Assembly: GCF_025813715.1 (NCBI RefSeq)
Contig: NZ_CP107532.1
Coordinates: 3,178,001-3,242,000 of the forward strand
Length of the DNA: 64,000 nt
Reading direction: 5' to 3'
From: Methylobacterium sp. FF17
Lineage (GTDB): Bacteria > Pseudomonadota > Alphaproteobacteria > Rhizobiales > Beijerinckiaceae
The position numbers and the translations under genes are program-made. The notes beneath the pieces were generated by a model that saw only the letters and a list, made by a program, of their open reading frames with translations, was not told the origin of the DNA and ran no database searches. Positions 3,604-29,721 of this stretch are shown piece after piece; within the stretch, counting starts at the first letter, position 1; each line of letters opens with the position of its first letter.

Positions 3604-3632
3604 GGGTCGGCGCTCGGCGCCGGCCCTTTCTT
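3604..3632 (+). terminator. Rho-independent terminator after the DUF6481 gene
   Basis: GGGTCGGCG pairs with CGCCGGCCC (one G-U pair) around a 5-base loop, followed by TTTCTT. It lies about 50 bases after the stop, between convergent genes. Confidence 0.55.
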
Positions 3633-3650
3633 CGTCGCTACGCCGCTCGG

Positions 3651-3896: not shown

Positions 3897-4035
3897 TGGG
3901 GCCTCTTGGAGTTGCCCAGGGCACGGGGTCGTGCGGGGTTGCCCCCTCCTAGCACGCCTGCATCCCGGCGTCGGCCTTTATCTTGCGGCCGGGCCGCAGA
4001 CAGGGGCAGACCGCGCGAACGCCCGCTCCCGCCGC

Positions 4036-6174: not shown

Positions 6175-6191
6175 CGCACCCTACCATTCAT

Positions 6192-6228
6192 GTTATAATG
6201 TTACGTTGCGCAGACGTTATAGTATTGC
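6192..6228 (-). promoter_or_regulatory. Paired Zur/Fur-family-like operator upstream of the ZnuD-like receptor
   Basis: Read toward the receptor, the elements are GCAATACTATAAC (6228-6216) and GTAACATTATAAC (6204-6192). They agree at 10 of 13 positions and start 24 bases apart. The second is 18 bases from the receptor start codon. Each is an imperfect palindrome of the AT-rich kind bound by Fur-family repressors such as Zur. This AT-rich patch is unusual in the GC-rich surroundings. The assignment to Zur is inference. Confidence 0.45.
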
Positions 6229-6422
6229 AATGCCTAGCGTATGTGCCAGGGCGTTTCGGTGGTTGCTGTTGCTCCGGCGCACCAACGTGGGGCGACGGGT
6301 TTTCCGCTCGCGCATTGCCGAGTGATCGATGGTTCCTGCTCGTGACCCTGCTTCCCTGGTGCAGCGCACGATGTGACGTTGCGCGCGCGGAACTGGATGA
6401 GGATGCCGGGGATTGCGCAGGC

Positions 6423-6689
6423 ATGTCTGAAACGTCCCATCCACCCGCGCCGGATACCGGCAACTCACACTCCGGAAGGGCCCTGCGGGTCACCGTCGAC
6501 CTCAATCTCTGTCAGGCCTACGCCCAGTGCTGCTACGCGGCGCCGGACCATTTCGTCCTGAAGGGACGCGAAGCCCTGCACTACGATCCCGCCCCATCCA
6601 TCCGTTCGCGGATGGATATCGAGCGCGCGCGGATCGCCTGCCCGGTCCAGGCGATCCAGGTGGAGGATATCGGGACCGCGCGGGAATGA
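6423..6689 (+). CDS. P450-type single-cluster ferredoxin
   Basis: An 88-residue ferredoxin that would pass electrons from the reductase encoded next to the P450 encoded after it. The cluster motif reads CQAYAQC followed by ACPVQAI, that is CX2YX2C(X)nCP: three Cys with Tyr where a fourth ligand would sit. This is the pattern of bacterial P450 ferredoxins with a 3Fe-4S or atypical 4Fe-4S cluster. The APDHF segment after the motif is also typical. The first 20 residues are a non-conserved polar leader. Its stop overlaps the next ATG by 4 bases, marking an operon. Confidence 0.85.
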   Translation: MSETSHPPAPDTGNSHSGRALRVTVDLNLCQAYAQCCYAAPDHFVLKGREALHYDPAPSIRSRMDIERARIACPVQAIQVEDIGTARE

Positions 6690-14044: not shown

Positions 14045-14141
14045 CGAGCCGCTCCGCGTCCTGCGCCATTCCATCCCGAGCGCTGGGACGAGCGGATCCG
14101 CATCGCCCCGCCCCGCTCGATGTCGCGGCCGGCTCCGAACC

Positions 14142-15236
14142 TCACCGGCCGTTCGAGCCTTCGGCCTCTCGGGTCTTGCGGACCCATTCGGCGAGGGAGG
14201 TCAGTCCATCCCGCAGACTCGTGCGCGGCGTCCAGTTCAGGATCGTCTCCGCCGCCCGGATGTCGGCGACGGCGTGACGAACGTCGCCCGCGCGAAACTG
14301 TCCGGTGACCCGTATCTCGGTCTCCGGCGCGCCGAGCACGGCTGCGAGTTCGCGCGCGGTTTCGAGGATCGTGGATGGCGTCCCGCTGCCGATGTTGATC
14401 GGTTGCTCCGGCCGCGTCGCCGCCGTCAGCCCTCGGAGGATCGCGTCGACGACGTCTTCGACATAGACGAAGTCGCGAACGATCTGCCCATCCTCGTAGA
14501 TGTTGAGCGACTGACCCTGCAGGATCTGACTCGAGAAGATCGACAGCACGCCCGTGTAGGGATTGTTCAGGCTCTGGCCGGGGCCGTAGACGTTCTGGAA
14601 TCGTAGCACGACCGGCTCGGTCGCCGTGCCGAGCAGCGCCTGCATCACCACGAATTCCTGCATCAGCTTCGTCGATGCGTAGATCGAAGCCGGGGCTGTC
14701 GGAGCGTTCTCCGGCGTGGGCACGGCGCGCAGGGCCAGACCGTCCACCATCGGATCGAACAGGCCTCGGGTCATGTCCCGGGGTTGCCGGGCCGGGGGCA
14801 CGACGAGGCTTCCCGCGCCGTCGCGGTACGCGCCTTCGCCATAGACGGCACGGGAGGAGGCCAGCACGAGGCGACGTCCCACGCGCTCCGGCAGGCTGCG
14901 GACGGCCTCGACGAGCGCGGCCGTGCCACCGACATTGACGTCACAGTAGCGGTGGACCTCGTCCCACGATTGCCCCGTCCCGGTTTCCGCCGCGAGGTGG
15001 ATGATGTGGTCCGGCTTGGTCTGCGCGACCACGCGGGCGATCGCGTCCCGATCGCGGATGTCGGCCTGAACGAAGTCCGTGCCCTCCGGAAGTGCCCCGC
15101 AGACGGCGTCTGGCCCGTGGATTTGCGGGTGCAGGTTGTCGAAGACGCTGAGATCGTACCCCATCTCCGCCAGGCGAGGCAGGAGATGCGATCCGATGAA
15201 ACCAGCACCGCCGGTCACGAGGATGCGTTCACGCAT
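14142..15236 (-). CDS. NAD-dependent nucleotide-sugar epimerase/dehydratase (extended SDR)
   Basis: A 364-residue extended short-chain dehydrogenase. The NAD-binding motif ILVTGGAGFIGSH is at residues 5-17, and HLAAETG is near 79. The active-site Tyr and Lys lie in SIYASTKLMQEF. RFQNVYGPGQ and DFVYVEDVVDAI are typical of UDP-glucose 4-epimerase-like enzymes that act on nucleotide sugars. It is the last gene of the minus-strand arm of the polysaccharide locus, 32 bases after the preceding glycosyltransferase. It probably makes a donor sugar for that locus. The exact substrate cannot be told. Confidence 0.9.
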   Translation of the reverse strand: MRERILVTGGAGFIGSHLLPRLAEMGYDLSVFDNLHPQIHGPDAVCGALPEGTDFVQADIRDRDAIARVVAQTKPDHIIHLAAETGTGQSWDEVHRYCDVNVGGTAALVEAVRSLPERVGRRLVLASSRAVYGEGAYRDGAGSLVVPPARQPRDMTRGLFDPMVDGLALRAVPTPENAPTAPASIYASTKLMQEFVVMQALLGTATEPVVLRFQNVYGPGQSLNNPYTGVLSIFSSQILQGQSLNIYEDGQIVRDFVYVEDVVDAILRGLTAATRPEQPINIGSGTPSTILETARELAAVLGAPETEIRVTGQFRAGDVRHAVADIRAAETILNWTPRTSLRDGLTSLAEWVRKTREAEGSNGR

Positions 15237-15268
15237 GGCTCAACTCCAATTGGTGCTGCGCGGAGGTC

Positions 15269-16360
15269 TCAGGTACGGGCCTGCACGGCCAAGTCGTAGA
15301 GTTGGCGGTACGAGCCCGGAAGGTCCTGTCCGCCGAACAGAGATGCCAGGTATTGTCGTTGCGCCGCCATGAACGGCGCCGGGTCCTTCGTTGCCGCTTC
15401 GGCGAAGGTGAGCCAGTCGTCAAGGCTCGAAACGACCTGCAATCCCTCGTAGATGCCGATATCGATGTTGCCGTCGGCGCTCGCCCATACCGCGGTGGGG
15501 ATCCCCGCCCAGACCATGTCGAGGAGCACACTGGACGGTGCCGAGATGCCGAAGGTGAACTTCTCGAGCGCCTGCTTGTAGAGCGGCGCCCGATTGAAGC
15601 GCACATTCTTCGGCAGAGCGACTTTGTTCTTTTCCGAGTATCGGCCCGCGGGATGCGGCCTCAGCTCAGCCGTCCCGCCCGTGGCGGCGATCGCGTCCGC
15701 GAACCGGCCGAGCACCTCGACGAACTCGATCTTTGCCCCCGCGCCGAAGCGGACCGAATGCAGGTTCTCGCAGATCAGACCGTGCAAAGGGGCAGCGTGG
15801 GCCGGCCACGGCCACGGGCGCTCGATCACGGGCGGATGCGACAGGGCGACGAGGGGGCCGACCGTCAGGATCTTCGCCCTCTGGTCGGACCTGACCGAAT
15901 GAAGCCGCTCGATGGGAAACCAACTCGCGGCGATGTCGCAGGCCATCCCGATCCGATGGCCGAAGGCGGTATCGTGGGCGTCGTTATGGTTGAAGCCGAT
16001 GCATTCGAGGCCGTGCTGGAGCGTGACCCGGGTGAACCCGGCGGGCGCGGCCAGAAACACCTGATGGCAGAAGGCATGGGCTCCGAGCTCGGATTCGCTT
16101 GCCGATATCAGAAGGCCGCATCGGCGGTTGAGCGCCGCCACCACGTCGAAGACCGTGTCGACATCGACCAGAACCGCCCCGAGCTGCTGGGCAATGTCCT
16201 GGAGTTCCGCGAACCAGACGCCGTCGGAATCGCGCTTCCGAAACTGCGTGCTGACGAGGAAGTGGAGTTCGAGTCCCCCCAGGTCTCGGAAGTGCTTGGC
16301 CAATGGCCTGATGGCAGCGACGTCCTGCTTCAGATCGAACAGAAAGGCGGCAACGTTCAT
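15269..16360 (-). CDS. GT-B-like glycosyltransferase or glycan biosynthesis protein
   Basis: A 363-residue soluble protein of two Rossmann-like halves. The C-terminal half has AELRPHPAGRYSEKN and ISAPSSVLLDMVWAGIPTAVWA. These resemble the donor-site region of GT-B enzymes such as CDP-glycerol:polyglycerophosphate transferases and capsule proteins. TLQHGLEC mid-protein is also typical. It begins 3 bases after the stop of the upstream glycosyltransferase gene, so both are in one operon. Acceptor and donor are unknown. It could instead be a non-catalytic surface-glycan protein, but context favours a transferase. Confidence 0.65.
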   Translation of the reverse strand: MNVAAFLFDLKQDVAAIRPLAKHFRDLGGLELHFLVSTQFRKRDSDGVWFAELQDIAQQLGAVLVDVDTVFDVVAALNRRCGLLISASESELGAHAFCHQVFLAAPAGFTRVTLQHGLECIGFNHNDAHDTAFGHRIGMACDIAASWFPIERLHSVRSDQRAKILTVGPLVALSHPPVIERPWPWPAHAAPLHGLICENLHSVRFGAGAKIEFVEVLGRFADAIAATGGTAELRPHPAGRYSEKNKVALPKNVRFNRAPLYKQALEKFTFGISAPSSVLLDMVWAGIPTAVWASADGNIDIGIYEGLQVVSSLDDWLTFAEAATKDPAPFMAAQRQYLASLFGGQDLPGSYRQLYDLAVQART

Positions 16361-16363
16361 GGG

Positions 16364-17887
16364 TCAGGAGGCTCCGGCGCCCTGCGCCTTCCCGATGGCG
16401 GGGTATGAAGACAGGCCGGCCACGTGGATCTCCAGCGAGGGGAAGGCTCGTCGGAAGACATGCATGAGGTTCGAGAGGGCGCTGTAGTAAGCCTCGGTCT
16501 CGTACAGGATCTGATGCGGTTCGGATGGCAGGACCGGCAGCGCCGCATCGAGCAGCAACATGTCGTGGGCCGCGAGCCTCACCATGCGAACCTTCTTGAA
16601 ATCCTCGGGCTCCGACAGACCTGACTGGAGCGGCTCCGCCAGATACGGAACCAGTCCCGGCTTGACCCAGACGGCCAGGACGCGTCCACCCACGTGATCG
16701 AGACGAACATCGAACGCTTGTTCGCCGCGCGTATAGGGCGACCGGATCGACAAGATCCCCGCCGCGCGAGTCGCAGGGACAGTCGCGCGCTCCGGATCGA
16801 GCGCATACAGCACGGCCTGCGTGCGCGGGCGCAGGCCTCTCGAATCCTGGGTGCCACCGCCCACCCGATGCTGCCGGGTGAGGAACAGGAAGAGCGACAC
16901 GAGCACGTTCTCGAGGTCCGAGATGCGCTCCACCACCTGCGTGATCTCGCCGAGCGTGTCTGAGCTGATCCGGCAGGCCCCGCGCTCGATATCGGCGAGG
17001 AGCTCGCTCGCCTGCGTGTAAACGGCCGTATCGAGATCGAGATAGAGGGGGAACCCTGGCGAAAGAACCTGGGCCCCGCCGGAGATGGCGGTCAGGGCGC
17101 GGTTCGGAGACTTGGCGCGGCTGAACGACTGCCCATTCACCGGCAGGAAGGCGACAAGTGCCTGATCGAGGGCGATCGCCTCGCGCTCTTCCGTCCAGGC
17201 CTCGATCGTATAGGGCACCGGAAGCCGGCTGATCCGGGCGAGATTCGCCGGATTCAAGGAGTTCGTATCGGTGAGAATCGTCAGATGGACGTCGAACCGA
17301 CCGGCCGCGAGCTCGGCCAGGGACCAGGAATAGGCGCAGAGATCCTGGATCCCCACGGGAAAGAACGGATTTGCGCCAATCCCGAACCAGAGGACCTCGA
17401 TCACCCCGGTTTCCCGGGTCCGTTCCAGCGACCCGGCGAGGGACGCCGAGACGGTTTGCGCGTCGATCTTCGGGTACGGGTCCGGCAAGATATGCACCGG
17501 CAGGCCCGGCACCTGCTCCCTGACGACGCGCTGCATCGTTGCCGTCGAGCAGAGCGCGAACTGGAACACGGGTCCGAAACGCCGCAGCCAGGTGCGAAAC
17601 CGCGTCAGGCGCGGATCGTCGTCCTGACTGAAGTAATCGTCGAACAGGTCGACGCCGACCACGATACCGCGTGCGCGAAGGATCTTGGCGATGCTGATGG
17701 CACCGACCGAATAGGTTTTCGAGAACACGCAGACGGAGCACGCCGCGAAGTCGGCCTCCGTGACCTCGTCCATGGATTGAATCGCCACATCGAAGTAGGC
17801 GGACTTGGTCTTCAACCGGTCATACCGGATGCGACTGCCAGCCGTGACCTTGTGCTGCTTGGTCGCTACGAGGAAGAGGATGCGCAT
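16364..17887 (-). CDS. Glycosyltransferase, GT-B fold (GT4-like)
   Basis: A 507-residue protein starting MRILFLVATKQHKVTAGSRIRY, typical of family-4-like glycosyltransferases. GIVVGVDLFDDYF, HILPDPYP and IEVLWFGIGANPFF mark the two Rossmann domains. SFSRAKSPNRALTAISGGAQVL corresponds to the donor-site loop. About 180 C-terminal residues have no recognised domain. The open frame extends much further upstream, but that part overlaps the preceding gene and has no coding character. The start chosen is the ATG 38 bases after that gene's stop. It is the second gene of the minus arm. Confidence 0.72.
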   Translation of the reverse strand: MRILFLVATKQHKVTAGSRIRYDRLKTKSAYFDVAIQSMDEVTEADFAACSVCVFSKTYSVGAISIAKILRARGIVVGVDLFDDYFSQDDDPRLTRFRTWLRRFGPVFQFALCSTATMQRVVREQVPGLPVHILPDPYPKIDAQTVSASLAGSLERTRETGVIEVLWFGIGANPFFPVGIQDLCAYSWSLAELAAGRFDVHLTILTDTNSLNPANLARISRLPVPYTIEAWTEEREAIALDQALVAFLPVNGQSFSRAKSPNRALTAISGGAQVLSPGFPLYLDLDTAVYTQASELLADIERGACRISSDTLGEITQVVERISDLENVLVSLFLFLTRQHRVGGGTQDSRGLRPRTQAVLYALDPERATVPATRAAGILSIRSPYTRGEQAFDVRLDHVGGRVLAVWVKPGLVPYLAEPLQSGLSEPEDFKKVRMVRLAAHDMLLLDAALPVLPSEPHQILYETEAYYSALSNLMHVFRRAFPSLEIHVAGLSSYPAIGKAQGAGAS

Positions 17888-17925
17888 GTGCGGCTGAGAC
17901 TCGCCCTGGTGGAAACTCGGCCGCG

Positions 17926-20900
17926 TCAGAAGGACCTGACCAGCGTGCTCGCCCGGACGGCGGGCAGCAGTCGCGCGGCACTGAGCCGTGTCGCCTCGAA
18001 GACCTTGACGCCGCGGGGCGAGCGCGGAAAGTCTCGGGCGGTGACGGACAACAGCGAGGTGCAGAGGTTCGTGTACCCCGCTTCCACCGCTCGGGTCGAT
18101 AGGGTCACACCCGCTTGAGCGGATAAAGCAGTGGCGTCCTTCAGCCCTCCCACCTCTCGCCACACATACATGGAGATCGCCATGCAGGTCAGAAGGTTGG
18201 CCGCGACGGGGTAGATTGCCATCGGCAGAAGGGCAATGCTGTCCAGCTCTTTCAGGGACAGGGCCGGCGGCCCCGCGAAATCGACCCGGCCGGGGAACAG
18301 GCCCGCGCTCTTGAGGACGTAGTTGTTTTCGGCAGGCGTCCGCGCCCTGATCTGCAGGCAGCCCACCGTTCCGGTGCCGTCCAGCGTGGCGAGGCGCGCC
18401 AGCGTATCCAGGGTCCTCGGATCGTGCAGGATCATGCTCTGGTCGAGCAGCACGAGAACGTCCCCGGTCGCCCGCGAAGCCAGAACGTTCAGCGCAGAGT
18501 TGATCTGCGAGGTGTCGAGGTCGGAAACGACCTGGCCCAGTCCGGGGAGGATGTCCGCCACCAGTTGGCGAAGGGAATCGAGTTTCGAGTCATGCGCCGC
18601 TGCTCCGACGATGATTTCCTGGACATTCGGCGCAGCCTGTGCGGCGAGCGAGGCCAGGAGCGGCTGGAGATTGTGCTCGGGCTGCTCGACCAGCACGAGG
18701 ACCGAGATGCTTGGCGCGGAAGGACCGATCTGCGGCAGGATCGTCGGCTGATCGCGCGGGACCGGGGAGATGAGATCCGCCTGCGTCGGCGCGCCGAGGT
18801 CACGGAACAGAATGGCGAGCGGCAGCAAGCGATCCGCGTGCGGATCGGGCTGCGGGTCATCCCCACGCCCCTCGAGCGCAGGGAAGCTCTGGCGCGCGAT
18901 CCGGCCGAGCTCGGTCACGGCGGCGAGGGGTCCGCCCTCGGGTAGAGCGATGAACCAGCGCTTCGTTGGTGCCGCGGGGTCGGTGACGATGTGGGGCGCG
19001 AAGGCCGACGCGGAAGGAAGGGGTTCCCGCGAAACCAAGCCGGCGATCGTCGGGACAGCGGCGTTGCCCAGCGACAAGCGCAGCCGACCCGGACGGGACG
19101 CGGCTCCATCGGGCCGCTTCAACTGTGCGACGGCATGATCGGCGAAGCCGCGGTCACCGAGGTCGCGGTCGACGCGCGCCTCGATATTCGTGGCGCCGAC
19201 CGGGATCCGGGGCACTGCCGCAAGCCATTCACGCAGGCTCGGATCGAAGATCGGTTCCGTCCCGATGACCGTCGATAGATCGATGTCGAGACCCGCGAGC
19301 GCGAACTCGGCGGGGTGGTTCTCGCCACCGATGCAGTCCGTGAGGTAGGTGTCCGACAATCGGCGCAGGTCCGACAGGCTTCCCGATTCGTCACCGAGTG
19401 CCGAGACCTCGGCCTCGTGCGGACCCCCGCGCAGCAGGGATGGGAACGGCACGAGATCGATGAACGCGATCTCGCCCGCCGCAGTGCAGCCGACCACAAG
19501 GAGCGGCATGTAGGCCGAGCGCATGCCGACCGGGTAGATCGCCGCATGGGGCGACAGCTCCTGCTCGTCGACCTGGATCAGACCGAGGGTGCCGGTCGGG
19601 GCACGTTGCAGCTGATAGACGCGCAGGACGGTGGGCGTGATCCCGGAGGTGACGGCCGGGGCGTCGAGGCTTCGGACCTTCAGGAGGCGGCTGTTCGCCC
19701 ACCAGAGATCCGCAACGTGGAGCCGGTCGCGGCCATCGGCGGTCCGAAGGGTTCGGAAGGACGCGAGATCGTTCCGGTGAGCCCGAAAGCTCGGCGGCGC
19801 ATAGCTCCGCCCGTCGAGGCGGACCGACGGGAGCAGGCCGGGCGCGTCGTCCAGGAGGTGGAAGAGGGCGTGCAGGCCGCCGATCGGTAGTTCGAACCCC
19901 TTGCTGTGGCTCGAATCGCCGACATGGGCATCCACGTCGGACCGCCGCATACGCCGCGCGTTCCAGCCGAGCCTGACATCGCCGCACCAGATCTCGAGGG
20001 GCAGACCCTCTGCGCGACCCCGCTCCTGCGGGGACCAGGCCCAACCCACCACCTTGTCGTCGATGAAGGCGTCGACGTGGAATCCGTCGACGTCGCGTTC
20101 ATCCGCCGGCGGAGCGTCGGCCTCCGTTCCCGCACTCGACGCGTGAGTGGTGGGAGCCACTGCGGAGGCCGCGAGCTCCTGTGCCCGCGCGAAGACGGAG
20201 AGAACTTGCTCCGCGAGGCGCTCCGGACTGTAGTCGCGCCGCAGCTTCTCCTGAGCGCGCTCGACCTGGGCGCGGTGCGCACCACCGTCCTCGAGCAGGC
20301 GCTCGAAGGCCGCGAACCATTCCGCCTCACCGTCGACGAGGAGGCCGCAGCCGTCGGCGCAGCAGGCATCGTAGACGGTGCCGCGCGAAGCCACCACGGC
20401 AAAGCCGCAGGCGGTGTACTCCACCCACTTCGTGTCGGCCTTGACCGCGTTGAAGGGGGTCTGGGCCAGCGCGCAGATGCCGATCGTCCAGCCAAGCCCT
20501 TCGAGCGTGTCCATGAACGCGCCGTAATCGCCCACCGGTGGGATCGTCCGTACCCGGTCGCCGAACAGCTTGAGTGCGTCAGGCATCGGCGTCGAGCCGA
20601 AGATCTCGAAGGTCACCTCCGGCCGGCCCGTGAGCAGGCGGACGAGCGCCGGGACGACGGGCGCGAGGTCGTGGCTGTGGTCGGTGCCCATGTAGCCAAT
20701 GACAGATCGGATGGGTTCGACCGGGGCACGCCGAACGCGATGGGCACAGTAGAGGGAGCCGGCGACCACGCGCGAACTCTCCCCATCGCCGAACAGGCGC
20801 TGCCGCAGGGCCGGTGTCGAGCAATATGCGAGGGTGGTTTCCGCCAGCAGGTACCGGATCGTCGCCAGACGGTCGGGATGCATGTGCAGAGCCTGCTTGG

Positions 20901-21285
20901 CAGCCCCAAGTTCGATCGGGATATCGAGCAGGTCGTCATCGATGTGGAAGATGGTCGGGACACCGCGCTCGCGGGCCCAGTTCACGATGGTCTCGGGTTG
21001 CGGACCGCTGTAACGGCAAAGAATGATTAGCTTCGGTGCAAGTTCATTCAGACGCGCTCTTATCCAGGACGCCGCAGGATCACCGCGCATTTCAGGACCG
21101 AACCGCTCTTTCAGAGCAGATTCAGTTATAAGCTCTTCGTCGATTAAATTATTCGATTGATCAATCGATCCTAATTGAAGGAACGGATCAAGAAAACTAA
21201 TAACAAGGCTAGCTACCTTAGAATTAGCGACATATGCAATCTTATCGAGGGGATAAGTTGTGGCAAGCCCGGTGCCAACAAGCAT
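17926..21285 (-). CDS. Large multidomain glycosyltransferase: GT-B domain, accessory domain, degenerate GT2-like domain
   Basis: A 1119-residue cytoplasmic protein. Residues about 50-390 form a GT4-like GT-B domain with IFHIDDDLLDIP, GYMGTDHSHD and KWVEYTACGFAVVAS (near 288). Residues about 400-500 hold an accessory domain (VVGWAWSPQERG to SKGFELPIGG) seen in other surface-glycan enzymes. Residues about 500-850 are unassigned. The rest is GT2-like (SISVLVLVEQPEHN), but the metal-binding DXD is replaced by LLDQSM near 948, so it may bind sugar without transferring it. An in-frame stop just upstream fixes the ATG. The first 80-90 codons are AT-rich, unlike the remainder. It leads the minus arm. 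Confidence 0.75.
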   Translation of the reverse strand: MLVGTGLATTYPLDKIAYVANSKVASLVISFLDPFLQLGSIDQSNNLIDEELITESALKERFGPEMRGDPAASWIRARLNELAPKLIILCRYSGPQPETIVNWARERGVPTIFHIDDDLLDIPIELGAAKQALHMHPDRLATIRYLLAETTLAYCSTPALRQRLFGDGESSRVVAGSLYCAHRVRRAPVEPIRSVIGYMGTDHSHDLAPVVPALVRLLTGRPEVTFEIFGSTPMPDALKLFGDRVRTIPPVGDYGAFMDTLEGLGWTIGICALAQTPFNAVKADTKWVEYTACGFAVVASRGTVYDACCADGCGLLVDGEAEWFAAFERLLEDGGAHRAQVERAQEKLRRDYSPERLAEQVLSVFARAQELAASAVAPTTHASSAGTEADAPPADERDVDGFHVDAFIDDKVVGWAWSPQERGRAEGLPLEIWCGDVRLGWNARRMRRSDVDAHVGDSSHSKGFELPIGGLHALFHLLDDAPGLLPSVRLDGRSYAPPSFRAHRNDLASFRTLRTADGRDRLHVADLWWANSRLLKVRSLDAPAVTSGITPTVLRVYQLQRAPTGTLGLIQVDEQELSPHAAIYPVGMRSAYMPLLVVGCTAAGEIAFIDLVPFPSLLRGGPHEAEVSALGDESGSLSDLRRLSDTYLTDCIGGENHPAEFALAGLDIDLSTVIGTEPIFDPSLREWLAAVPRIPVGATNIEARVDRDLGDRGFADHAVAQLKRPDGAASRPGRLRLSLGNAAVPTIAGLVSREPLPSASAFAPHIVTDPAAPTKRWFIALPEGGPLAAVTELGRIARQSFPALEGRGDDPQPDPHADRLLPLAILFRDLGAPTQADLISPVPRDQPTILPQIGPSAPSISVLVLVEQPEHNLQPLLASLAAQAAPNVQEIIVGAAAHDSKLDSLRQLVADILPGLGQVVSDLDTSQINSALNVLASRATGDVLVLLDQSMILHDPRTLDTLARLATLDGTGTVGCLQIRARTPAENNYVLKSAGLFPGRVDFAGPPALSLKELDSIALLPMAIYPVAANLLTCMAISMYVWREVGGLKDATALSAQAGVTLSTRAVEAGYTNLCTSLLSVTARDFPRSPRGVKVFEATRLSAARLLPAVRASTLVRSF

Positions 21286-21490
21286 TTCTTTGTCTCATAC
21301 ATCATGCCGAGTGCTGTCTGTACGGTTCTTAGGGCAATGTGCTATCGTAGGCAACATCGGTCGGGCTGAAGCGATATCGCGGCTTGTGTGCATGCGACTG
21401 AGACGCTAGCAGGTGTTACCGATAACGGGCCAAAATCCCTTTTACAATCAGAACCGAGCTTAGCTCAAAAGCGACGATTGGAAGCTGTAA
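21286..21490. other. AT-rich divergent promoter region of the polysaccharide locus
   Basis: About 205 bases between the leftward glycosyltransferase arm and the rightward methyltransferase arm. It is much richer in A and T than the genome and should carry both promoters. No operator is recognisable. Confidence 0.5.
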
Positions 21491-22144
21491 ATGAGCCTTT
21501 GGCAAGACAATCTCAACAATAAAGGCAAAATAATTCATAAATGGGCGCATTATTTCCCTGTTTATGAAAAGCATTTCGAGCGTTGGCGCAATAGGTCAAT
21601 GGTTTTCTGGGAGGTGGGCGTCTACGAAGGCGGGTCACTTCAGATGTGGCAGAAGTATTTTGGCCCATCTGCCATCATCATCGGCCTTGATATAAACCCC
21701 GCGTGCACGAAGCATGCTGCCGAGGGTATCAATATACGTATCGGCGATCAGAGCGATACAGCTTTCTTGCAACGTGTCATCGATGAGTTCGGTCCGCCCG
21801 ACGTCGTTCTTGATGACGGAAGTCATCACATGAAACAAACGTGGGCAACGTTCTCTCATGTATATCCGCAAGTTCCGAAAAACGGAGTTTACATGGTTGA
21901 GGACATGCACACAAGCTACTGGGAAAACTGGGGCGGAGGACTCGATGTTCAAGACTCTTTTATTAATAAATCGAAAAAACTAATTGACGAGCTAAACGCT
22001 GATCATACAAAGGGAGCTCTTCTCCCAACAGAATTCACGAGAACTACAGACAGCATAAGTTTCTATGACAGCATCGTCGTATTTGAGAAAGGAAATATTT
22101 GGTGGAAGCGCGGCTTCCGCACTGGTGGCAATAAAGAAACTTGA
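21491..22144 (+). CDS. Class I SAM-dependent methyltransferase, probably sugar O-methyltransferase
   Basis: A 217-residue methyltransferase. The SAM motif VFWEVGVYEGGSLQMWQKYF is followed by AIIIGLDINPAC, IRIGDQSD, PDVVLDDGSHH and YMVEDMHTSYW. These match the metal-dependent family that includes sugar O-methyltransferases for macrolide and anthracycline sugars (MycE/ElmM-like). The paired acidic residues in DDGSHH and ED would hold the metal. In this locus it probably methylates a hydroxyl of a surface glycan sugar. GGAAG seven bases before the ATG can serve as ribosome site. GC content is low, close to 45% by eye, suggesting transfer. Confidence 0.8.
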   Translation: MSLWQDNLNNKGKIIHKWAHYFPVYEKHFERWRNRSMVFWEVGVYEGGSLQMWQKYFGPSAIIIGLDINPACTKHAAEGINIRIGDQSDTAFLQRVIDEFGPPDVVLDDGSHHMKQTWATFSHVYPQVPKNGVYMVEDMHTSYWENWGGGLDVQDSFINKSKKLIDELNADHTKGALLPTEFTRTTDSISFYDSIVVFEKGNIWWKRGFRTGGNKET

Positions 22145-23345
22145 AAGCCAATCTAACGTGCCTAAATCAAGCCAGATTGACTTGACTATCAAAACAGAGA
22201 GGGGGTTGACCGTTCATCCCCTCCTGTTGGGCAGTGCAAAATCAAGACTTCTGCTTCCGAACGCGCCGTCCTCATCTCATTTTGAACATCTCCGAACGAA
22301 AAAAGGTAAGATTGTCAATCTGTTCGAGATAATAGCCGAGGAAGCAACATCTCAGGCCCAGCAAGCTTTTGATGAAAGGGTTATCTATGGTGGGCCGCTT
22401 TTTGATCATTTCGGTCATTTGATAGCTGAGAGCGTGCATCGAATTTGGCCGCGCCTAGTCTATCCTGAACTGTCTAAACTGAAGATAGCATTTCACCCAA
22501 CGCCAACGAGATCAGGCTACTCTCAGGTTAAGCATGCATGGATGATTTCTGTGCTTTCGTACATGGGTGTTAGCAGAAGCGATATAATTTTAATCGATCA
22601 ACCTACGTATTTTCGAGAATTGCTCATCCCTCAGCAGGCACGCGGTCAAATATTTTCGACTGCAGATCCTAAATACAACGAATTATTCCCGTTAATCGAA
22701 AAATCGACTGGATCTGCGTTTCAGAGAACTGAAAAGTTCATCTACGTATCGAGGCGGCGATATCTACACTCCGGGTCCTACTTGGGTGAAGTCCTTGTCG
22801 AAGATGTTCTGCAGAGCGTCGGTTTTACGATCGTTTATCCTGAAGATTGGGATGTAAAAGATCTTGTTGACTTATTTTGTGGCGCTGAAGCAATAGTCTT
22901 CAGTGAGGGAAGCGCTATTCATGTGCTGGAGTTGTGCGGAAAGATCTCCGCATCTGTTTTTGTAATTTGCCGAAGAAGCACGAGTTTTGTTAAGACCGTT
23001 TTTGGGCAAATCCTTTCGGAATTTGCGGCGCGTCATGTACTAATTGAAAATACGGAAGTCGTTACACCTTTGGACTGGGACCGCAGTAAAAACTTGCCAA
23101 CCGTCGGTAATGCAAGCGCTATCGTTGATATCAAAAGTCTGCTGGAAACGTTGTCGAATGATATCTCTATCAGTATTCCTGTTCCATCAGATGAAGCAAT
23201 AAGGCATGCTCAGCAACGCGATCTCCTTCGCATGATCCTTGATAAGAGATCTACAAAGGCTGGAACTGACGTTTGTAAACTCGGAGAACTTTTAATCATT
23301 TTAAGAAAGCAGTTCGAAGATCACTATTTACTCGAGGATCGATAG
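22065..23345 (+). CDS. Glycosyltransferase family 61 protein (DUF563)
   Basis: A 426-residue protein from this start. The family region begins near residue 105 with ERVIYGGPLFDHFGHLIAES and ends with VFSEGSAIHVLELCGK and FVICRR, matching DUF563/GT61. These enzymes transfer pentose or hexose to glycans. The start is uncertain. The ATG at 22065 overlaps the methyltransferase by 80 bases and has no ribosome site. GTG codons at 22125 and 22158 are alternatives, and the latter leaves no overlap. The gene is strongly AT-rich (35-43% GC in sampled lines), the clearest foreign composition in the window. It is intact. Confidence 0.75.
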   Translation: MTASSYLRKEIFGGSAASALVAIKKLESQSNVPKSSQIDLTIKTERGLTVHPLLLGSAKSRLLLPNAPSSSHFEHLRTKKGKIVNLFEIIAEEATSQAQQAFDERVIYGGPLFDHFGHLIAESVHRIWPRLVYPELSKLKIAFHPTPTRSGYSQVKHAWMISVLSYMGVSRSDIILIDQPTYFRELLIPQQARGQIFSTADPKYNELFPLIEKSTGSAFQRTEKFIYVSRRRYLHSGSYLGEVLVEDVLQSVGFTIVYPEDWDVKDLVDLFCGAEAIVFSEGSAIHVLELCGKISASVFVICRRSTSFVKTVFGQILSEFAARHVLIENTEVVTPLDWDRSKNLPTVGNASAIVDIKSLLETLSNDISISIPVPSDEAIRHAQQRDLLRMILDKRSTKAGTDVCKLGELLIILRKQFEDHYLLEDR

Positions 23346-23402
23346 GACTACTCGACTTTGCCGGTGATGCAAAAACTGATCTTGGCACCGCCTGAGGTAT
23401 TT

Positions 23403-24119
23403 ATGAACTTTGCAAAAGCAGATCCTACGATTCTCGTGATCGGGCAAAGCCACGTAGAAGCCGTGCTTTCTGCCAACCCGCCTGAGAATAAATTAAAGAT
23501 TATCAATCTTAATTCGGTTGACCGATCAATCTCAATTGCCGACAAAATCAATCTGGGCGGGTATTTGCCAGAGCCAGCCGAGAATTCAATCGTATTTTCG
23601 ATGATTGGTGGTAACTTTCACAACACATTCGGATTAATTGAAAGTTCGCTCCCATTCGATTTCGTTGAGCCGGAGAGCCATAACTACTCCTTTGGGTCGA
23701 AGCGATACCTAATTACATATGAATTAATCTTCCGGTATTTTACCGATGCAATGAGAGGGGGCTTTCTTAGATCAATTTTGAAACTGAAAAACTACTACGG
23801 AACTCCGTTCGTTCATATCATCTCGCCGCCGCCGATCGGCGATGACGAGCATATCAAACAGAATCCCGGTGGTTACTTCAAAGATAAAGTTCATCTTGGA
23901 GTAACGCCTGCTGAATTACGCGGGAAGCTTTATCGACTCCATACGCGTGTAATTGTCGAGTTCTGCCAGGAACACGGCATCCCAACGCTCCCCCCGCCGG
24001 CCGAGGCCGTTACCGAGGACGGGTTCCTGGCGCGTCCATTCTGGAAGAACGATCCCACGCACGCCAATGCCGCCTACGGGCGTTTGGTGCTCGAACAGCT
24101 TCGCGGATACACGGCATGA
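23403..24119 (+). CDS. SGNH/GDSL-type hydrolase-like protein
   Basis: A 238-residue protein with the SGNH blocks in order. GQSH near residue 14 carries the nucleophile Ser, GGNFHN lies near residue 64, and DPTHANAAYG near the C-terminus supplies the Asp-His pair. Such enzymes remove or transfer acyl groups, here perhaps acetyl on the glycan. The ATG at 23403 has a GAGG five bases upstream and places block I at the N-terminus as usual. Upstream ATG (23367) and TTG starts are less likely. Composition changes inside the gene: AT-rich to about 23,950, then GC-rich to the end. It overlaps the next gene by ATGA. Confidence 0.72.
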   Translation: MNFAKADPTILVIGQSHVEAVLSANPPENKLKIINLNSVDRSISIADKINLGGYLPEPAENSIVFSMIGGNFHNTFGLIESSLPFDFVEPESHNYSFGSKRYLITYELIFRYFTDAMRGGFLRSILKLKNYYGTPFVHIISPPPIGDDEHIKQNPGGYFKDKVHLGVTPAELRGKLYRLHTRVIVEFCQEHGIPTLPPPAEAVTEDGFLARPFWKNDPTHANAAYGRLVLEQLRGYTA

Positions 24120-25261
24120 GCGCCAACCCGTATCAGGGCCGACCGGACTACCAGTTCTGGAAGCGCGGCGGCGGTTTCGATCGCGCCGAGGACTTCGATC
24201 CGGTCACCGGCCCGTCCTTCGCCATCACCCCGGGGGATTCGGTGGTGACGGCGGGAAGCTGCTTCGCGCAGCACGTCTCGCGTCATCTCATGAAGGCCGG
24301 GTTCAACGTGCTCGTCACCGAGCATGCGCATCCGCTCATCCCCGACAAGTATGCCGCGCAGTTCCACTACGGATTGTTCGCGGCCCGCTACGGCAACGTC
24401 TATACCGCCCGCCAATTGCGCCAACTGCTGGAGCGGGCCTACGGCCTGTTCATCCCGCGGGAGAGCGCCTGGCCGCTGGGCGCGGACCGCTGGGTCGACC
24501 CGTTCCGGCCACAGATCCAGCCGGGCGGCTATGTCTGTGTCGCGGAGCTGGAGGAGGACCGCCGCATCCACCTCGACGCCGTCCGCCGCGCGATCGACGG
24601 AATGTCGGTCTTCGTCTTCACGCTCGGGCTGACGGAGGCATGGGTCGATCGCGCCGACGGCGCCGTCTATCCGCTCGCGCCCGGGGTCGCCGGCGGGGTC
24701 TATGATCCCGATCGCATCGCCTTCCAGAACTTCACCGCCGCGCAGACCCGTGAGGATCTGGAGTGGTCGTTGAACTTCATCCGCCGCCGCAATCCCGGCG
24801 TGCGCGTGATCCTAACGGTCTCGCCTGTTCCGCTGAACGCCACGGCCGTCGACCGGCATGTGATGGTTTCGACGGCCTACTCGAAGGCGGCCTTGCGGGT
24901 TGCGGCCGAGGAGGTCTCGGGTTCCCTGAGGGACGTCGACTACTTTCCATCCTTCGAGATCGTCACCAGCCCCCACGCCGGGTCGACCTACTTCGCCGAC
25001 GACCGGCGATCCGTCACCGAGGCCGGCGTCGCCCACGTGATGCGGACGTTCCTGCGGCACTACGGTGCGTCTCAGGATGCAGCGGCGGTGATCCCATCCG
25101 TATCCGAAGAACCCGACGGAGTAACCGTCACGGCAGCCCCTCCGGCCGCGGTACCGCAGCGCGATATCGACACCGCCCGCGAGAACGTCCGACGCGAAGT
25201 CGCGGCCATGAGTACCCTGGTCGAGACCCTTTGCGACGAGGAAGCCATCGACAACACCTGA
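24116..25261 (+). CDS. GSCFA family protein
   Basis: A 381-residue protein with the signature AGSCFAQHVSRHL near residue 45 and FTLGLTEAWVDR near 166, both diagnostic of GSCFA. This family is related to SGNH hydrolases and is often found beside polysaccharide genes. The Ser in GSCFA is the likely nucleophile. VILTVSPVPLNAT and the late segment SFEIVTSP also fit. The C-terminal 55 residues are non-conserved. It overlaps the SGNH gene by 4 bases, so two acyl-ester enzymes are co-expressed. GC content is back to the genome norm. Substrate unknown; glycan acyl modification is an inference. Confidence 0.82.
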   Translation: MSANPYQGRPDYQFWKRGGGFDRAEDFDPVTGPSFAITPGDSVVTAGSCFAQHVSRHLMKAGFNVLVTEHAHPLIPDKYAAQFHYGLFAARYGNVYTARQLRQLLERAYGLFIPRESAWPLGADRWVDPFRPQIQPGGYVCVAELEEDRRIHLDAVRRAIDGMSVFVFTLGLTEAWVDRADGAVYPLAPGVAGGVYDPDRIAFQNFTAAQTREDLEWSLNFIRRRNPGVRVILTVSPVPLNATAVDRHVMVSTAYSKAALRVAAEEVSGSLRDVDYFPSFEIVTSPHAGSTYFADDRRSVTEAGVAHVMRTFLRHYGASQDAAAVIPSVSEEPDGVTVTAAPPAAVPQRDIDTARENVRREVAAMSTLVETLCDEEAIDNT

Positions 25262-25424
25262 CCGCGCGCGTGAAGCAACCGTGTTGCAGCGCTGCCCTTG
25301 TTCGGCGGGGTGCGTTGCGGCAGGATCGATGGGTATCCCGCCTGGACCGTCACGGCTGACGTCCGGCGTTCTGAAGCGGGAGCGGCCCGCGCCGTTCGAT
25401 CCCCAGACAGAGCGAGACCACCGC

Positions 25425-26123
25425 ATGAGCACACGGCTGAAAGTCTATGTCGGCTACGATAGCCGAGAGGACATCGCTTGGCAGGTCTGTCGGCTCTCCC
25501 TGAACCGGCACGCCAGCATTCCGGTCGAGGTCTATCCGCTGCGCCAGGACACGGTGCGCGAACTCGGCCTCTACACGCGGCCGCAGGACAAGGGTGCGGC
25601 GACCGAGTTCTCGCTGACCCGCTTCCTCGTTCCCTACATCGCCGCCCACGAGGGTTGGACGGTGTTCGTCGATTGCGACTTCCTGTTCACAACGGACATC
25701 GCCCGGCTGCTGGACAGCCTCGACCCCGCCAAGGCCGCCTACGTCGTGCAGCACGATTACGTGCCGCGTTCGGCCAGCAAGATGGACGGACAGGTACAGA
25801 CGACCTACCCGCGCAAGAACTGGTCGTCCTTCATGGTGTTCAACGGGGCGCACCCGGCGATCAAGGCGCTCACCCCGGACGTGGTGAACACCCAGAGCCC
25901 CGCCTACCTGCACCGCCTGTCCTGGGTCGAGGACAAGGATCTCGGCGCGCTGGACCTCGGCTGGAACTTCCTCGAAGGCGAGTACGACAAGCCTGAGCAG
26001 GTTCCGCCCGCGATCCATTACACCAATGGCGGTCCCTGGTTCCCGAACTGCCAGGACGTCGACTTCGCCGACCTCTGGATCGCGGAGAAGGCACGGTTCG
26101 AGAAGACGCTCGAGACCGCTTGA
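25425..26123 (+). CDS. GT-A fold glycosyltransferase (nucleotide-diphospho-sugar transferase)
   Basis: A 232-residue protein. The start KVYVGYDSREDIAWQV and the motif WTVFVDCDFLFTTDI, with the metal-binding DXD (Asp-Cys-Asp), place it in a GT-A family of sugar transferases. SSFMVFNGAHPAIK and WNFLEGEY are acceptor-side elements also typical of it. Open frame extends 144 bases further upstream, but that part has no conserved features, so the ATG at 25425 is chosen. It lies 163 bases after the GSCFA gene on the same strand and ahead of kpsF, in the plus arm of the locus. Confidence 0.78.
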   Translation: MSTRLKVYVGYDSREDIAWQVCRLSLNRHASIPVEVYPLRQDTVRELGLYTRPQDKGAATEFSLTRFLVPYIAAHEGWTVFVDCDFLFTTDIARLLDSLDPAKAAYVVQHDYVPRSASKMDGQVQTTYPRKNWSSFMVFNGAHPAIKALTPDVVNTQSPAYLHRLSWVEDKDLGALDLGWNFLEGEYDKPEQVPPAIHYTNGGPWFPNCQDVDFADLWIAEKARFEKTLETA

Positions 26124-26172
26124 CGCTGCGGCTGCCACAACGCCGCCATATCGCTGGGTGCAAGATCACCAA

Positions 26173-27201
26173 ATGATGAACGACCTGGCAATCCTGCACC
26201 GGCCCGTCCCCCCGAACGATGACGATCCCGGATCCGACGCCGCCGTTCGCTCGACCGGCATCGGCAGTCTCGAGATCGGCATGCAGGCCATGCAGGAACT
26301 CGTCGAGGCGCTGCACGGCGACCTCGGCGTTCCCTTCGAGAAGGCCGTCGGCACGATCCTGAGAACCCGCGGGCGTCTCATCGTGTCCGGGATCGGCAAG
26401 AGCGGGCATATCGGGCGCAAGCTCGCCGCGACGCTCGCGTCGACGGGGACACTCGCGTTCTTCGTGCATCCCGGCGAAGCGAGCCACGGCGATCTCGGGA
26501 TGATCGCGCGGGACGATACCGTGCTGGCGCTGTCGTGGTCCGGCGAAACGAGCGAATTGGGCGACCTCATCGCCTTCACCCGCCGCTTCTCGATCCCGCT
26601 CATCGCGATGACGTGGAACCCGGCGAGCACGCTCGGACGGGCCGCCGACGTCCTGCTTGCCTTGCCGCGCGTGCGCGAGAGCTGCCCGCACGACCTCGCG
26701 CCGACCTCCTCAAGCCTGATCCAGCTCGCGATGGGTGATGCCCTGGCCGTCGCCCTGTTGGCGCGACGCGGCTTCACGAGCTCCAACTTCCGAACCTTCC
26801 ATCCGGGCGGCAACCTTGCGGCTCGGCTCAAGACCGTGGGGCAGCTTATGCACACGGGCGACGAGATCCCGCTCGTGGGATCCGGGACACTCATGCGCGA
26901 CGTGCTGCTGGCGATCGCGGGGCGGCGCTTCGGCTGCGTGGGTGTGGTGGACGAAAGCGGGATGCTCGTGGGTGTCGTGACCGACGGCGATCTGCGCCGC
27001 CATATCGGCTCCGAACTCCTGGCGATGCCGGTCGAGGACGTGATGACCGAGAATCCGCTCGTGGTCGATCCGTCCCTGCTTGCGAGCGCCGCCCTCGAAA
27101 CCATGAATCGTTGCCGTGTCACGGCGCTCTTCGCGGTGGAGAATGGCCGGCCCGCCGGCATCCTGCACGTCCACGATCTGCTGCGCGCCGGCATCGTCTA
27201 G
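26173..27201 (+). CDS. kpsF: KpsF/GutQ-type D-arabinose 5-phosphate isomerase
   Basis: A 342-residue two-part enzyme. The SIS domain (about 50-185) has GRLIVSGIGKSGHIGRKLAATL, HPGEASHGDLGM and SWSGETSELGDLI. Two CBS domains follow (about 225-342; MRDVLLAIAGRRFGC and VEDVMTENPLVVDP). It converts ribulose 5-phosphate to arabinose 5-phosphate, the first step to KDO for lipopolysaccharide or capsule. It closes the plus arm, 49 bases after the GT-A gene. The ATG at 26173 is followed at once by another ATG. No other KDO genes are present here, so this may be a locus-specific copy. Confidence 0.92.
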   Translation: MMNDLAILHRPVPPNDDDPGSDAAVRSTGIGSLEIGMQAMQELVEALHGDLGVPFEKAVGTILRTRGRLIVSGIGKSGHIGRKLAATLASTGTLAFFVHPGEASHGDLGMIARDDTVLALSWSGETSELGDLIAFTRRFSIPLIAMTWNPASTLGRAADVLLALPRVRESCPHDLAPTSSSLIQLAMGDALAVALLARRGFTSSNFRTFHPGGNLAARLKTVGQLMHTGDEIPLVGSGTLMRDVLLAIAGRRFGCVGVVDESGMLVGVVTDGDLRRHIGSELLAMPVEDVMTENPLVVDPSLLASAALETMNRCRVTALFAVENGRPAGILHVHDLLRAGIV

Positions 27202-27354
27202 GCCGCGCTGCGCCTCATTGGATCCCTGAGAACCTCGGGTCTCGGACAGATCTCTCGGCCGGGGGTTCACGGAACCTCGCCGAGCATGCCTTTCGGTAGA
27301 TTGAAGCAGGCCCGTGGGCGTCCGAGCATCACGGCTCCGTCGCCTGGGCCCGAG

Positions 27355-27391
27355 GAGGTTGTGGGCGATGACCTACGCCGCCCACAACCTC
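27355..27391. terminator. Strong perfect inverted repeat between kpsF and azoR
   Basis: GAGGTTGTGGGCG at 27355-27367 pairs perfectly with CGCCCACAACCTC at 27379-27391 across an 11-base loop. It lies between convergent genes, about 150 bases after kpsF. No run of T follows on either strand, so it may stop transcription with Rho, or mark a small RNA or repeat. Confidence 0.45.
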
Positions 27392-27470
27392 TTCAAGATA
27401 ACGAAATTTCGGCACTGAGCTTAGACGCCGTCGTATGGCTGCTTGGACCTTCATACGGCTCCCGGCGCTC

Positions 27471-27489
27471 GAATCCGGTTCTCGGATTC
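27471..27489 (-). terminator. Short hairpin directly after azoR
   Basis: GAATCCG and CGGATTC pair perfectly around a 5-base loop, two bases beyond the azoR stop. No T-tract follows on the minus strand, so terminator function is weakly supported. Confidence 0.3.
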
Positions 27490-27491
27490 CC

Positions 27492-28103
27492 TCAAACGGC
27501 AGGCAGGCTGGACACGGCCGCAAGGGCTCCGGCGAGGGCCTTCTCCCGGAATTCCGGGCCGATGGCGATGCCCTCGGCCACGATGACCTCCGGATTCGTG
27601 ATGCCGATGAAGGTGAGGATGGTGCGCAGGTAGGTCTCGGCGTGCTCGGAGGCCGCGGCCGGCGTACCCGCCCCGTAGAAGCCCCCCCGTGCCACGGCGA
27701 CGATGACCCGCTTTTCGGATACGAGGCCGACCGAGCCGCTTTCCGTGTACTTAAAGGTCTTACCGGCGACGAGGATGCGGTCGATCCAGGCTTTCAGCTG
27801 GGAGGAGACCGTGAAGTTGTAGAGCGGTGCGCCGATCACCACGATGTCGGCGTCCAGGAATTCATCCAGCACCGTCCGGCCGAGCGCCACATCGTTCTGA
27901 ATGTCGGAGGTGTTGGTGGCGTTGGGCTGGTGGCCGGCGAGGTAGGCGCCCGAGAGGTGCGGGATCGGCTCGGCGGCGAGATCGCGATAGGTCACGGCGA
28001 GATCCGGCGCCGCGGCCTTGAGGTGCGCGACGATCGCGGCGGAGACGGTGCGGCTGACGGAATGATCCCCCAGGATGCTGCCGTCGACGTGCAGGAGCTT
28101 CAT
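27492..28103 (-). CDS. azoR: FMN-dependent NADH-azoreductase
   Basis: A 203-residue flavodoxin-like quinone/azo reductase of normal length. It starts [21 protein letters not shown], with the FMN phosphate loop around residues 9-17. [20 protein letters not shown] and ARGGFYG are the conserved flavin-contact segments. It uses NADH for two-electron reduction of quinones and azo compounds in the cytoplasm, protecting against electrophile stress. It is divergently transcribed from an HxlR-type regulator 76 bases away, the usual arrangement for control by that regulator. Confidence 0.93.
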
Positions 28104-28587: not shown

Positions 28588-29721
28588 TCAGGTCCAGTAG
28601 AGGATCCGCGCCTGCGGCAGGGTCGTCCGGACCGTCTCGGTGATGGTCTGACGCATCGCCTGCATGAGCTCACGGGGGAAGACGTACTTCACGGAGCCGA
28701 ACTTCGTGAGCTTGCGGCTGCGCTCCGCCTCCGCCATCGGCAGGTCCGAACCGGGATACCAGCCCTGGAGCACGTCCTTCGAGCCCGGCGTGAAGCGGTG
28801 GGTGATGAGCTCGACCGTGAGATCGAGGTTGGGCACGCCGGCGAGCGCTTCGGCGACGTCGCGCGCCAAGGCTGCGTAGGCGTCGGCCCAGTCCGGCACG
28901 GGCAGGATCGGCGCGATGGTGAGACCGACCGGGTAGCCCGCCTGCGCGACGGCGCGCAGCGCGGCCAGGCGCGCATCGAGGCTCGCGGTCCCGCCTTCGT
29001 AGCGGGCGGCGTTGCGGGCGTTCACCGAGAAGCGGATACGGGTCCGGCCGCGATGGGGCAGGGTGAGCAGCGGCGCGACGCCGGCGAACTTGGTGGTGAA
29101 GCGGAGCTGCACCGGGGCATCCCAGGCTCCGAAATGCGTGATCGCGGCCGAGAGGGAGCCGGTCAGGTGCTCGATGCCGAGCGGGTCCGTATAGCAGGAG
29201 GCCTCGAAGGTGGTGCCTTCCCCGGATCGCTCGGCCTGCGCCGAGGTGACGCCGCCCTGGCCGAGATAGCCGCCGAGATTGGCCAGGATGGCGTCGAGAT
29301 TGGCATAGGCCCGCGTCACCGGCGGGCCGGACAGCGAACCGGCGAGGTAGCAGTACTGGCAATGGGCGGGGCAACCCTCGGCGAGGTCGACACGCCAATC
29401 GGCGCTCGGGGGGATCGGCTGCAGCTTCAGCTTGGTCGGGGGCGCAACCACGATGGCGAGGGTGGCCTTCGCGTCGCGATAGGCCTTACGCGGGTCCGCG
29501 TCGCGCAGGCCCATCAGGCGATTGCTCTTCAGGCGCTCGACGGGAAGCCCCAGGGCCTCGACGCGGGCCAGGATCGCTCGGCCGTGCTCATGCTCCAGCG
29601 CCGCCGGAGTCACCAGCACGCGGCGCGGGCGCCAGAGGCGCGCGGGGCGGGACACGTCCCGCTGTGCGTCGCCGGGCGGTTCGATCGTGATGGAGTCCGG
29701 CGCAGTGTCTTCGAGGACCAT
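28588..29721 (-). CDS. Spore photoproduct lyase family radical SAM protein
   Basis: A 377-residue radical SAM enzyme. The cluster motif CPAHCQYCYL has Cys at about 117, 121 and 124 (CX3CX2C). ARPRRVLVTPAAL near the start, FEASCYTDPLGIEHLTG, and the C-terminal KFGSVKYVFP match spore-photoproduct-lyase-like proteins of non-sporulating proteobacteria. True SplB repairs spore photoproduct in DNA. The role in a bacterium without spores is not established, and DNA photolesion repair is only an inference. The frame extends 309 bases upstream into rsmD but without coding character, so the ATG at 29721 is chosen. Confidence 0.82.
   Translation of the reverse strand: MVLEDTAPDSITIEPPGDAQRDVSRPARLWRPRRVLVTPAALEHEHGRAILARVEALGLPVERLKSNRLMGLRDADPRKAYRDAKATLAIVVAPPTKLKLQPIPPSADWRVDLAEGCPAHCQYCYLAGSLSGPPVTRAYANLDAILANLGGYLGQGGVTSAQAERSGEGTTFEASCYTDPLGIEHLTGSLSAAITHFGAWDAPVQLRFTTKFAGVAPLLTLPHRGRTRIRFSVNARNAARYEGGTASLDARLAALRAVAQAGYPVGLTIAPILPVPDWADAYAALARDVAEALAGVPNLDLTVELITHRFTPGSKDVLQGWYPGSDLPMAEAERSRKLTKFGSVKYVFPRELMQAMRQTITETVRTTLPQARILYWT

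Follow-up and report, generated by a model that had tools for sequence, protein, structure and literature searches.

In pneumococci, exchange of the capsule (cps) locus by homologous recombination is reportedly a familiar event. In Enterobacteriales surface polysaccharide loci, sugar-specific genes move by homologous recombination, as set out in the accessible part of PMC7305143. Low-GC (guanine plus cytosine) polysaccharide clusters acquired by horizontal transfer are likewise well described, and the O-antigen cluster OBC3 of Pseudomonas protegens CHA0 has 51% GC against 63.4% for its genome (PMC10715155, from the portion available). Here we describe an AT-rich (adenine plus thymine) cassette spanning 2.95 kb in a polysaccharide locus of Methylobacterium sp. 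FF17, whose genome is 5.99 Mb. The window referred to throughout is the whole 64,000-nucleotide stretch analysed (G000:C1:3178001-3242000; positions 3,178,001 to 3,242,000 of NZ_CP107532.1). With a probability of roughly 0.7, the cassette represents foreign glycan genes that replaced the middle of the locus by recombination inside the two genes at its ends, leaving both as in-frame hybrids. It contains about 89 first codons of a glycosyltransferase gene, a methyltransferase gene, a glycosyltransferase family 61 (GT61) gene, and about 188 of the 238 codons of an SGNH-fold gene, arranged as follows in window coordinates.

21018..23966, no strand: AT-rich cassette (GC 0.45) within a locus whose GC is 0.667; maximum-likelihood change points
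17926..21285, minus strand: 1119-aa (amino acid) glycosyltransferase-like gene (Glyco_trans_1_2 at 24.3 bits, cut-off 25)
21286..21490, no strand: AT-rich divergent spacer of 205 bp between the glycosyltransferase and methyltransferase genes
21491..22144, plus strand: class I methyltransferase-like gene, 217 aa (Methyltransf_24 at 20.8 bits, below the cut-off of 26.3)
22125..23345, plus strand: GT61 gene, 406 aa from a GTG start (PF04577 at 39.4 bits, cut-off 27)
23403..24119, plus strand: SGNH-fold gene, 238 aa, with the right cassette edge at about codon 188
24116..25261, plus strand: GSCFA-family gene, GC-rich

Composition and edges of the cassette

A three-segment maximum-likelihood fit of GC content over positions 14,142-27,200 places the edges at 21,018 (profile interval 20,998-21,022) and 23,966 (23,934-23,990), with a log-likelihood gain of 222 and edge intervals 24 and 56 bp wide. 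In 200-bp windows GC is 0.40-0.535 within the cassette versus 0.595-0.725 in the locus on both sides, and the locus without the cassette has a GC of 0.667, its surroundings 0.704 and 0.692. The only other 500-bp windows below 0.60 GC in the 64 kb, taken at 250-bp steps, are single ones at 50,251 (0.59) and 63,251 (0.53), the latter being a second short dip (63251-63750) near the window end. GC at third codon positions (GC3) is 0.38, 0.50, 0.42 and 0.47, from left to right, for the four coding parts in the cassette and 0.76-0.88 for eight coding parts of the locus outside it, the parts being cut at 21,031 and 23,955. This is the composition expected of a horizontally acquired glycan cassette, unlike both the host and the adjoining genes and with GC3 steps that fall inside genes. 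The cassette DNA is single-copy, with no second copy in the genome.

Both edges lie within intact reading frames. The left edge is at codon 89 (88-96) of the open reading frame 17926-21285(-), in which GC3 is 0.38 over the first ~89 codons, within the cassette, and 0.83 over the remainder. The right edge is at codon 188 (178-196) of the SGNH gene 23403-24119(+), about 50 codons short of the stop; GC in this gene goes from 0.44 to 0.65 partway, and its end overlaps the GSCFA gene (GC 0.67). An earlier sequence-only reading of this DNA had drawn an AT-rich stretch with borders inside coding genes, the left one in the first 80-90 codons of the 1119-residue gene and the right one in the last 50-60 codons of the SGNH gene, and the GC windows and the fit agree with it on each of these points. 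The drop in GC that it described is real, but its floor of 35% is too low for a stretch whose lowest 200-bp window stands at 0.40.

Protein ancestry at the two edges

Alignments of the predicted proteins show a mosaic at both edges, the stronger one at the right. A search of 5.8 billion proteins returned 58 SGNH proteins, the window's own included, and the four nearest others (P0007-P0010; sources lgn and ena, contigs of 4.7-17.6 kb) are taken to be metagenomic. The window protein is 61-65% identical to these four over residues 1-184 and 89-91% identical over residues 185-238, and mean identity within the five is 58-60% over residues 1-155 and 88% over residues 166-238. Mosaic ancestry was assessed by distance ratios, not trees. 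The distance over residues 166-238 relative to that over 1-155 is 0.12-0.36 for each of the 10 pairs among the five, against 0.43-1.81 in all 315 control pairs; in the 77 control pairs of matched N-terminal identity, identity over the 3' part averages 0.66 and reaches 0.82 at most, versus a mean of 0.88 in the five. Sliding windows give a strong rise in identity in the five nearest proteins and a weak one in P0011-P0029. When corrected for conservation in other homologues, the best step follows residue 137 (about nucleotide 23,814), and a step as large as that observed was reached by 5 of 5000 block shuffles and by none of 200 random groups of five. P0029 was left out of the distance test by a coverage filter and out of the step test by hand; P0033-P0063 (31 of the 58) were aligned and stood outside the distance test, and 19 of the 58 are in the profile. 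Most simply, the donor and the recipient would both be members of a group in which the SGNH 3' end is conserved, and the crossover would have fallen inside that end.

The 238-aa protein belongs to the SGNH hydrolase superfamily on the strength of its fold together with its Block I, III and V residues. The part of PMC9487903 at hand describes this superfamily as having a Ser in Block I, an Asn in Block III and an Asp-x-x-His near the C-terminus, and gives GSCFA as a member family with no known function. Gly14-Gln-Ser16-His, Gly70-Asn71 and Asp217-Pro-Thr-His220 are invariant across 19 aligned sequences and fit Blocks I, III and V as laid out there. The protein is thus like the described superfamily in all three of these elements, and differs in that it matches no Pfam family, so that its assignment is by motif and fold. 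A structural model built from 19 sequences (mean predicted local distance difference test score 88.4) matches mainly SGNH proteins in the PDB: ranks 1 and 2 are designed scaffolds, ranks 3-6 are putative acylhydrolases and GDSL-like lipases, and PatB and a sialic acid esterase follow at ranks 15 and 30, the natural matches having query TM-scores of 0.45-0.52 and 11-14% identity. A sequence search of solved structures gave one match, with an E value of 0.92. Asn71 lies before the GC edge and Asp217 after it, and the active site would therefore combine both parts, with Ser16 of Block I and Asn71 of Block III coming from the donor and Asp217-His220 of Block V from the recipient.

At the left edge, the window glycosyltransferase and its closest relative, from M. 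oryzihabitans, are 24% identical over residues 14-88 and 61% over residues 89-371. The ratio of N-terminal to C-terminal identity is 0.39-0.57 (mean 0.47) in the seven pairs that include the window protein, versus 0.47-1.02 (mean 0.72) in the 21 pairs without it. These aligned sequences lend support to replacement of the N-terminus, weaker than that for the right edge. A common motif is kept in the eight aligned N-termini, and the AT-rich end of the gene therefore appears homologous and not foreign filler. The alignment draws on six of 12 homologue loci (seven sequences); it excludes L169, in which the match begins at residue 65, and L170-L174, in which it covers only residue 195 onwards or the C-terminal part.

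The best relatives of the three cassette proteins are at 87% for the methyltransferase (P0064), 59% for GT61 (P0001) and 71% for SGNH. The longest contig given for each is 17,596 bp, from which one contig carrying all three genes is the likely reading. Counted in full 40-residue blocks, matches are even along the methyltransferase (34-36 in each of five) and fewer in GT61 (18-30 in each of eight); the SGNH match rises to 35 of 38 residues in its last block. The word-limited protein search found five GT61 relatives altogether. Among plasmid proteins, methyltransferase relatives reach 52.4% among the best 20 of 34 records, and SGNH relatives, in six records, at most 32.9%. An origin from a virus was rejected, viral contigs giving no SGNH relative and four methyltransferase relatives at 38-39%.

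A plausible scenario is that the donor, a distant bacterium, would have had the same layout, with a glycosyltransferase gene divergent from a methyltransferase-GT61-SGNH series and a GC near 45%. Crossovers would have occurred near the beginning of the glycosyltransferase gene and, on the other side, within the conserved SGNH 3' end, and the swap would alter methylation, linkage or acylation of a surface glycan.

The surrounding locus and its relatives

The cassette and GSCFA gene sit among further genes of the locus, as listed.

14045..27491, no strand: whole polysaccharide locus, between mutL (12137-14044) and a flavodoxin-fold gene (27492-28103)
14142..17884, minus strand: left part of the locus, three genes
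14142-15236, minus strand: NAD-dependent epimerase-like gene
15269-16360, minus strand: unnamed 363-aa gene
16364-17884, minus strand: unnamed 506-aa gene
25425..27201, plus strand: right part of the locus, two genes
25425-26123, plus strand: unnamed 232-aa gene
26176-27201, plus strand: KpsF/GutQ-family sugar-phosphate isomerase gene, start not fixed

Within the cassette, the Pfam match above cut-off makes the GT61 gene a member of its family. It overlaps the end of the methyltransferase gene and most likely starts at the GTG at 22125, a longer ATG start existing at 22065; the protein and genus searches used a translation from 22137, which is no start codon. The SGNH searches used a 253-aa reading from 23358, which exceeds the 238-aa database protein (P0006) by 15 residues. 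Promoter-like sites between 21 and 24 kb are no more frequent than in shuffles, and the promoter and terminator scans as a whole gave no clear excess over shuffles. Beyond the locus, beside hxlR, we note a gene (28591-29670) with a 280.6-bit match to the spore photoproduct lyase family (PF20903); Methylobacterium is not known to make spores.

Among the 111 genomes of the genus sample, FF17 included, 14 relatives have an orthologue of the flavodoxin-fold gene at 79-87% identity, and in 11 of them it adjoins mutL, the two matches being spaced by 5-506 bp. The exceptions are G107, which has other DNA after mutL, and G055 and G114, which carry the two genes on separate contigs. Seven more genomes have a flavodoxin-fold homologue at 74-77% on another contig (six) or 2.6 Mb off (one). 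The regions read contain no match to the window glycan proteins between mutL and the flavodoxin-fold gene, and none of the other genomes of the genus was seen to carry the locus at this position. The adjacency of these two genes in relatives marks the 14.1-27.4 kb locus as an insertion here, the whole 13 kb having entered between them. In 11 of 13 regions mutL is preceded by a different isomerase (~50% identical), and in four of the 13 by a weakly matching GT61 relative (23-25%). At the contig ends of G055 (L177 2901-3208, L178 1301-1997) and in G001 (L100 15307-15812), other DNA beside mutL or the flavodoxin-fold gene shows, by eye, an iterated motif (GCTTCG.TCTTATCC-like), and the site may therefore be an insertion hotspot.

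The cassette genes are patchily distributed among relatives: counting FF17, SGNH is found in 13 of the 111 genomes (best other 34%), GT61 in 75 (best others 48% and 37%) and the methyltransferase in 42 (best other 56%). In a search in which just the few best candidates of each genome were scored, a full-length homologue of the 1119-aa protein was present only in FF17 and M. oryzihabitans (G065), with contig-edge pieces in G049. The closest cluster is that of M. oryzihabitans (51-76% identity at the protein level), on a contig other than its mutL contig, with homologues of the 1119-aa, 506-aa, 363-aa, isomerase and 232-aa proteins (51, 61, 68, 62 and 75% identical) and a 58-residue epimerase match, so that homologues of the left part lie near that of the 1119-aa gene. 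The 29 kb read around this cluster contain neither the methyltransferase-GT61-SGNH trio nor GSCFA, and distant methyltransferase and GT61 relatives are on other contigs of the genome. Genes of the FlhB and FliG families lie ~3 kb from the cluster (L163 4756-6920), suggesting a possible connection with flagella.

A single 5.5-kb contig of G049 (L151 1-5524) carries a row of five homologues (those of the 1119-aa C-terminus, 506-aa protein, isomerase, SGNH and GSCFA), at 29-62% identity and with GC of 0.72-0.78 throughout; this GC-rich row may resemble the unreplaced arrangement. The GT61 homologue of G049 has a GC of 0.76 in a setting of 0.73. Partial clusters are present in Sphingomonas, Comamonadaceae and Hyphomicrobiales records. 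In the order sample, 15 of 397 genomes, FF17 included, have an SGNH match, and 13 of the 16 other SGNH places were fetched. SGNH is directly upstream of GSCFA in 12 of these 13 loci (gap 15-159 bp, GC difference at most 0.04), and about 1.1 kb separates the two in the remaining one.

Other AT-rich islets contain related genes. One of 2.5 kb in G020 (L154 9716-12188) has SGNH and GSCFA, and one of 3.0 kb in G015 (L229 4260-7292) has a GT61 homologue, the edges in both being between genes or at their ends. In G001, a close relative, SGNH-GSCFA lies in an AT-rich region (L158 ~1250-9000, 250-bp windows of 0.33-0.49) interrupted by a GC-richer stretch near 5.25-5.75 kb. Of the three islets with fitted edges, only that of the window has both edges well inside genes.

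Competing explanations and known systems

Homologous replacement within the two end genes accounts for in-frame edges inside homologous genes and for the mosaic ancestry of their products, weaker at the left and with a protein step at the right that lies ~150 bp ahead of the GC edge. Several observations weigh against it. The two positions at the right edge do not exactly coincide, and the comparison with the four nearest SGNH homologues is one of proteins only. At the left edge the ratios overlap, four of the 21 control pairs not exceeding 0.57, and in 27 of 28 pairs the glycosyltransferase is more conserved beyond its start than within it. The plasmid collection gave no match to the cassette DNA; the AT-rich related glycan genes of G001, G015 and G020 make AT-richness not peculiar to this event; and since no relative was seen with the locus here, exchange between near-identical flanks is not shown in DNA. 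The exchange of a variable cassette proposed by the sequence-only reading therefore holds in part: sharp in-frame edges, foreign composition and the protein mosaic at both edges favour it, but the conserved flanks it expected are not found at the site, because the relatives read lack the whole locus there. The same genes at this site in all relatives, which that reading had named as the contrary case, were not found in the regions read.

A mobile element was considered and rejected. The two edges have no repeat in common (the nearest, of 23 nt at 78%, links 20,988 to 24,470), no tRNA is nearby (the only one found is at 53 kb) and there is no plasmid DNA match; terminal repeats, target duplication and a tRNA target are all lacking, and Pfam scans of the locus genes, which did not take in every small open reading frame, found no transposase or integrase, in keeping with what had been read from the letters. 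Plain insertion of AT-rich foreign genes, through illegitimate recombination or an element since lost and with no homologous exchange, has the islets of G020 and G015 as precedents of similar size, with related genes and with edges between genes or at their ends. We consider it unlikely for this cassette, in which both edges are in frame inside intact genes, the AT-rich ends align with the same families, and the edges share no repeat. More improbable still is that there was no transfer, and that local drift in composition or selection for AT, with a stronger constraint on the SGNH 3' end, produced the pattern. That 3' part is indeed better conserved in 56 of 57 homologues, G001, G015 and G020 likewise have AT-rich relatives of SGNH, GSCFA or GT61, and low-GC glycan loci are common (PMC10715155, in the portion available); however, the edge intervals are tens of bases wide and lie within genes, the SGNH step far exceeds that of controls with equal N-terminal identity, and in other GC-rich hosts these genes have homologues that are themselves GC-rich. 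A stronger contender, to which we give somewhat less than an even chance, is that the whole 13-kb locus arrived already mosaic, the exchange having happened in another bacterium. The adjoining mutL and flavodoxin-fold genes of 11 of 14 relatives, with no window glycan matches between them in the regions read, fit this, as do the GC of the locus outside the cassette, slightly below that on either side, and the restriction of the full-length 1119-aa homologue to this genome and M. oryzihabitans, with pieces in G049. Such an arrival only moves the exchange elsewhere and does not replace it, and neither event is dated.

Replacement by intragenic recombination, wherever it occurred, makes this a well-bounded Methylobacterium case of a glycan locus that was likely altered in this way, with an enzyme that is apparently a hybrid of two lineages. 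A broader proposal, which we hold to be doubtful, is that the SGNH 3' end and GSCFA form a standing recombination anchor into which several lineages plug different upstream glycan genes, each swap building a hybrid acyl-modifying enzyme with the nucleophile half of the donor and the Asp-His half of the recipient. If the SGNH 3' end is such a repeated anchor, it would explain surface glycan variation without mobile elements, and would bear on phage sensitivity and surface attachment. A literature search, with subscription journals mostly outside its reach, found among the entries listed no account for Methylobacterium of this locus or of exchange at an SGNH-GSCFA point.

Compared with OBC3, as presented in the available portion of PMC10715155, the locus is likewise a low-GC polysaccharide cluster with a conserved insertion site and signs of sequential acquisition; OBC3 differs in having transposases, insertion sequences and inverted repeats, none of which was seen here among the locus genes scanned. 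The likeness to capsule and O-antigen exchange, in the accessible part of PMC7305143, is in the swapping of sugar-specific genes between bacteria by homologous recombination. That work compares many strains with the same locus, whereas here there is one genome at the site, and the edges here are inside the SGNH and glycosyltransferase genes. The event is a clearly bounded case of a known kind, the mosaic glycan locus, with unusually clear intragenic edges.

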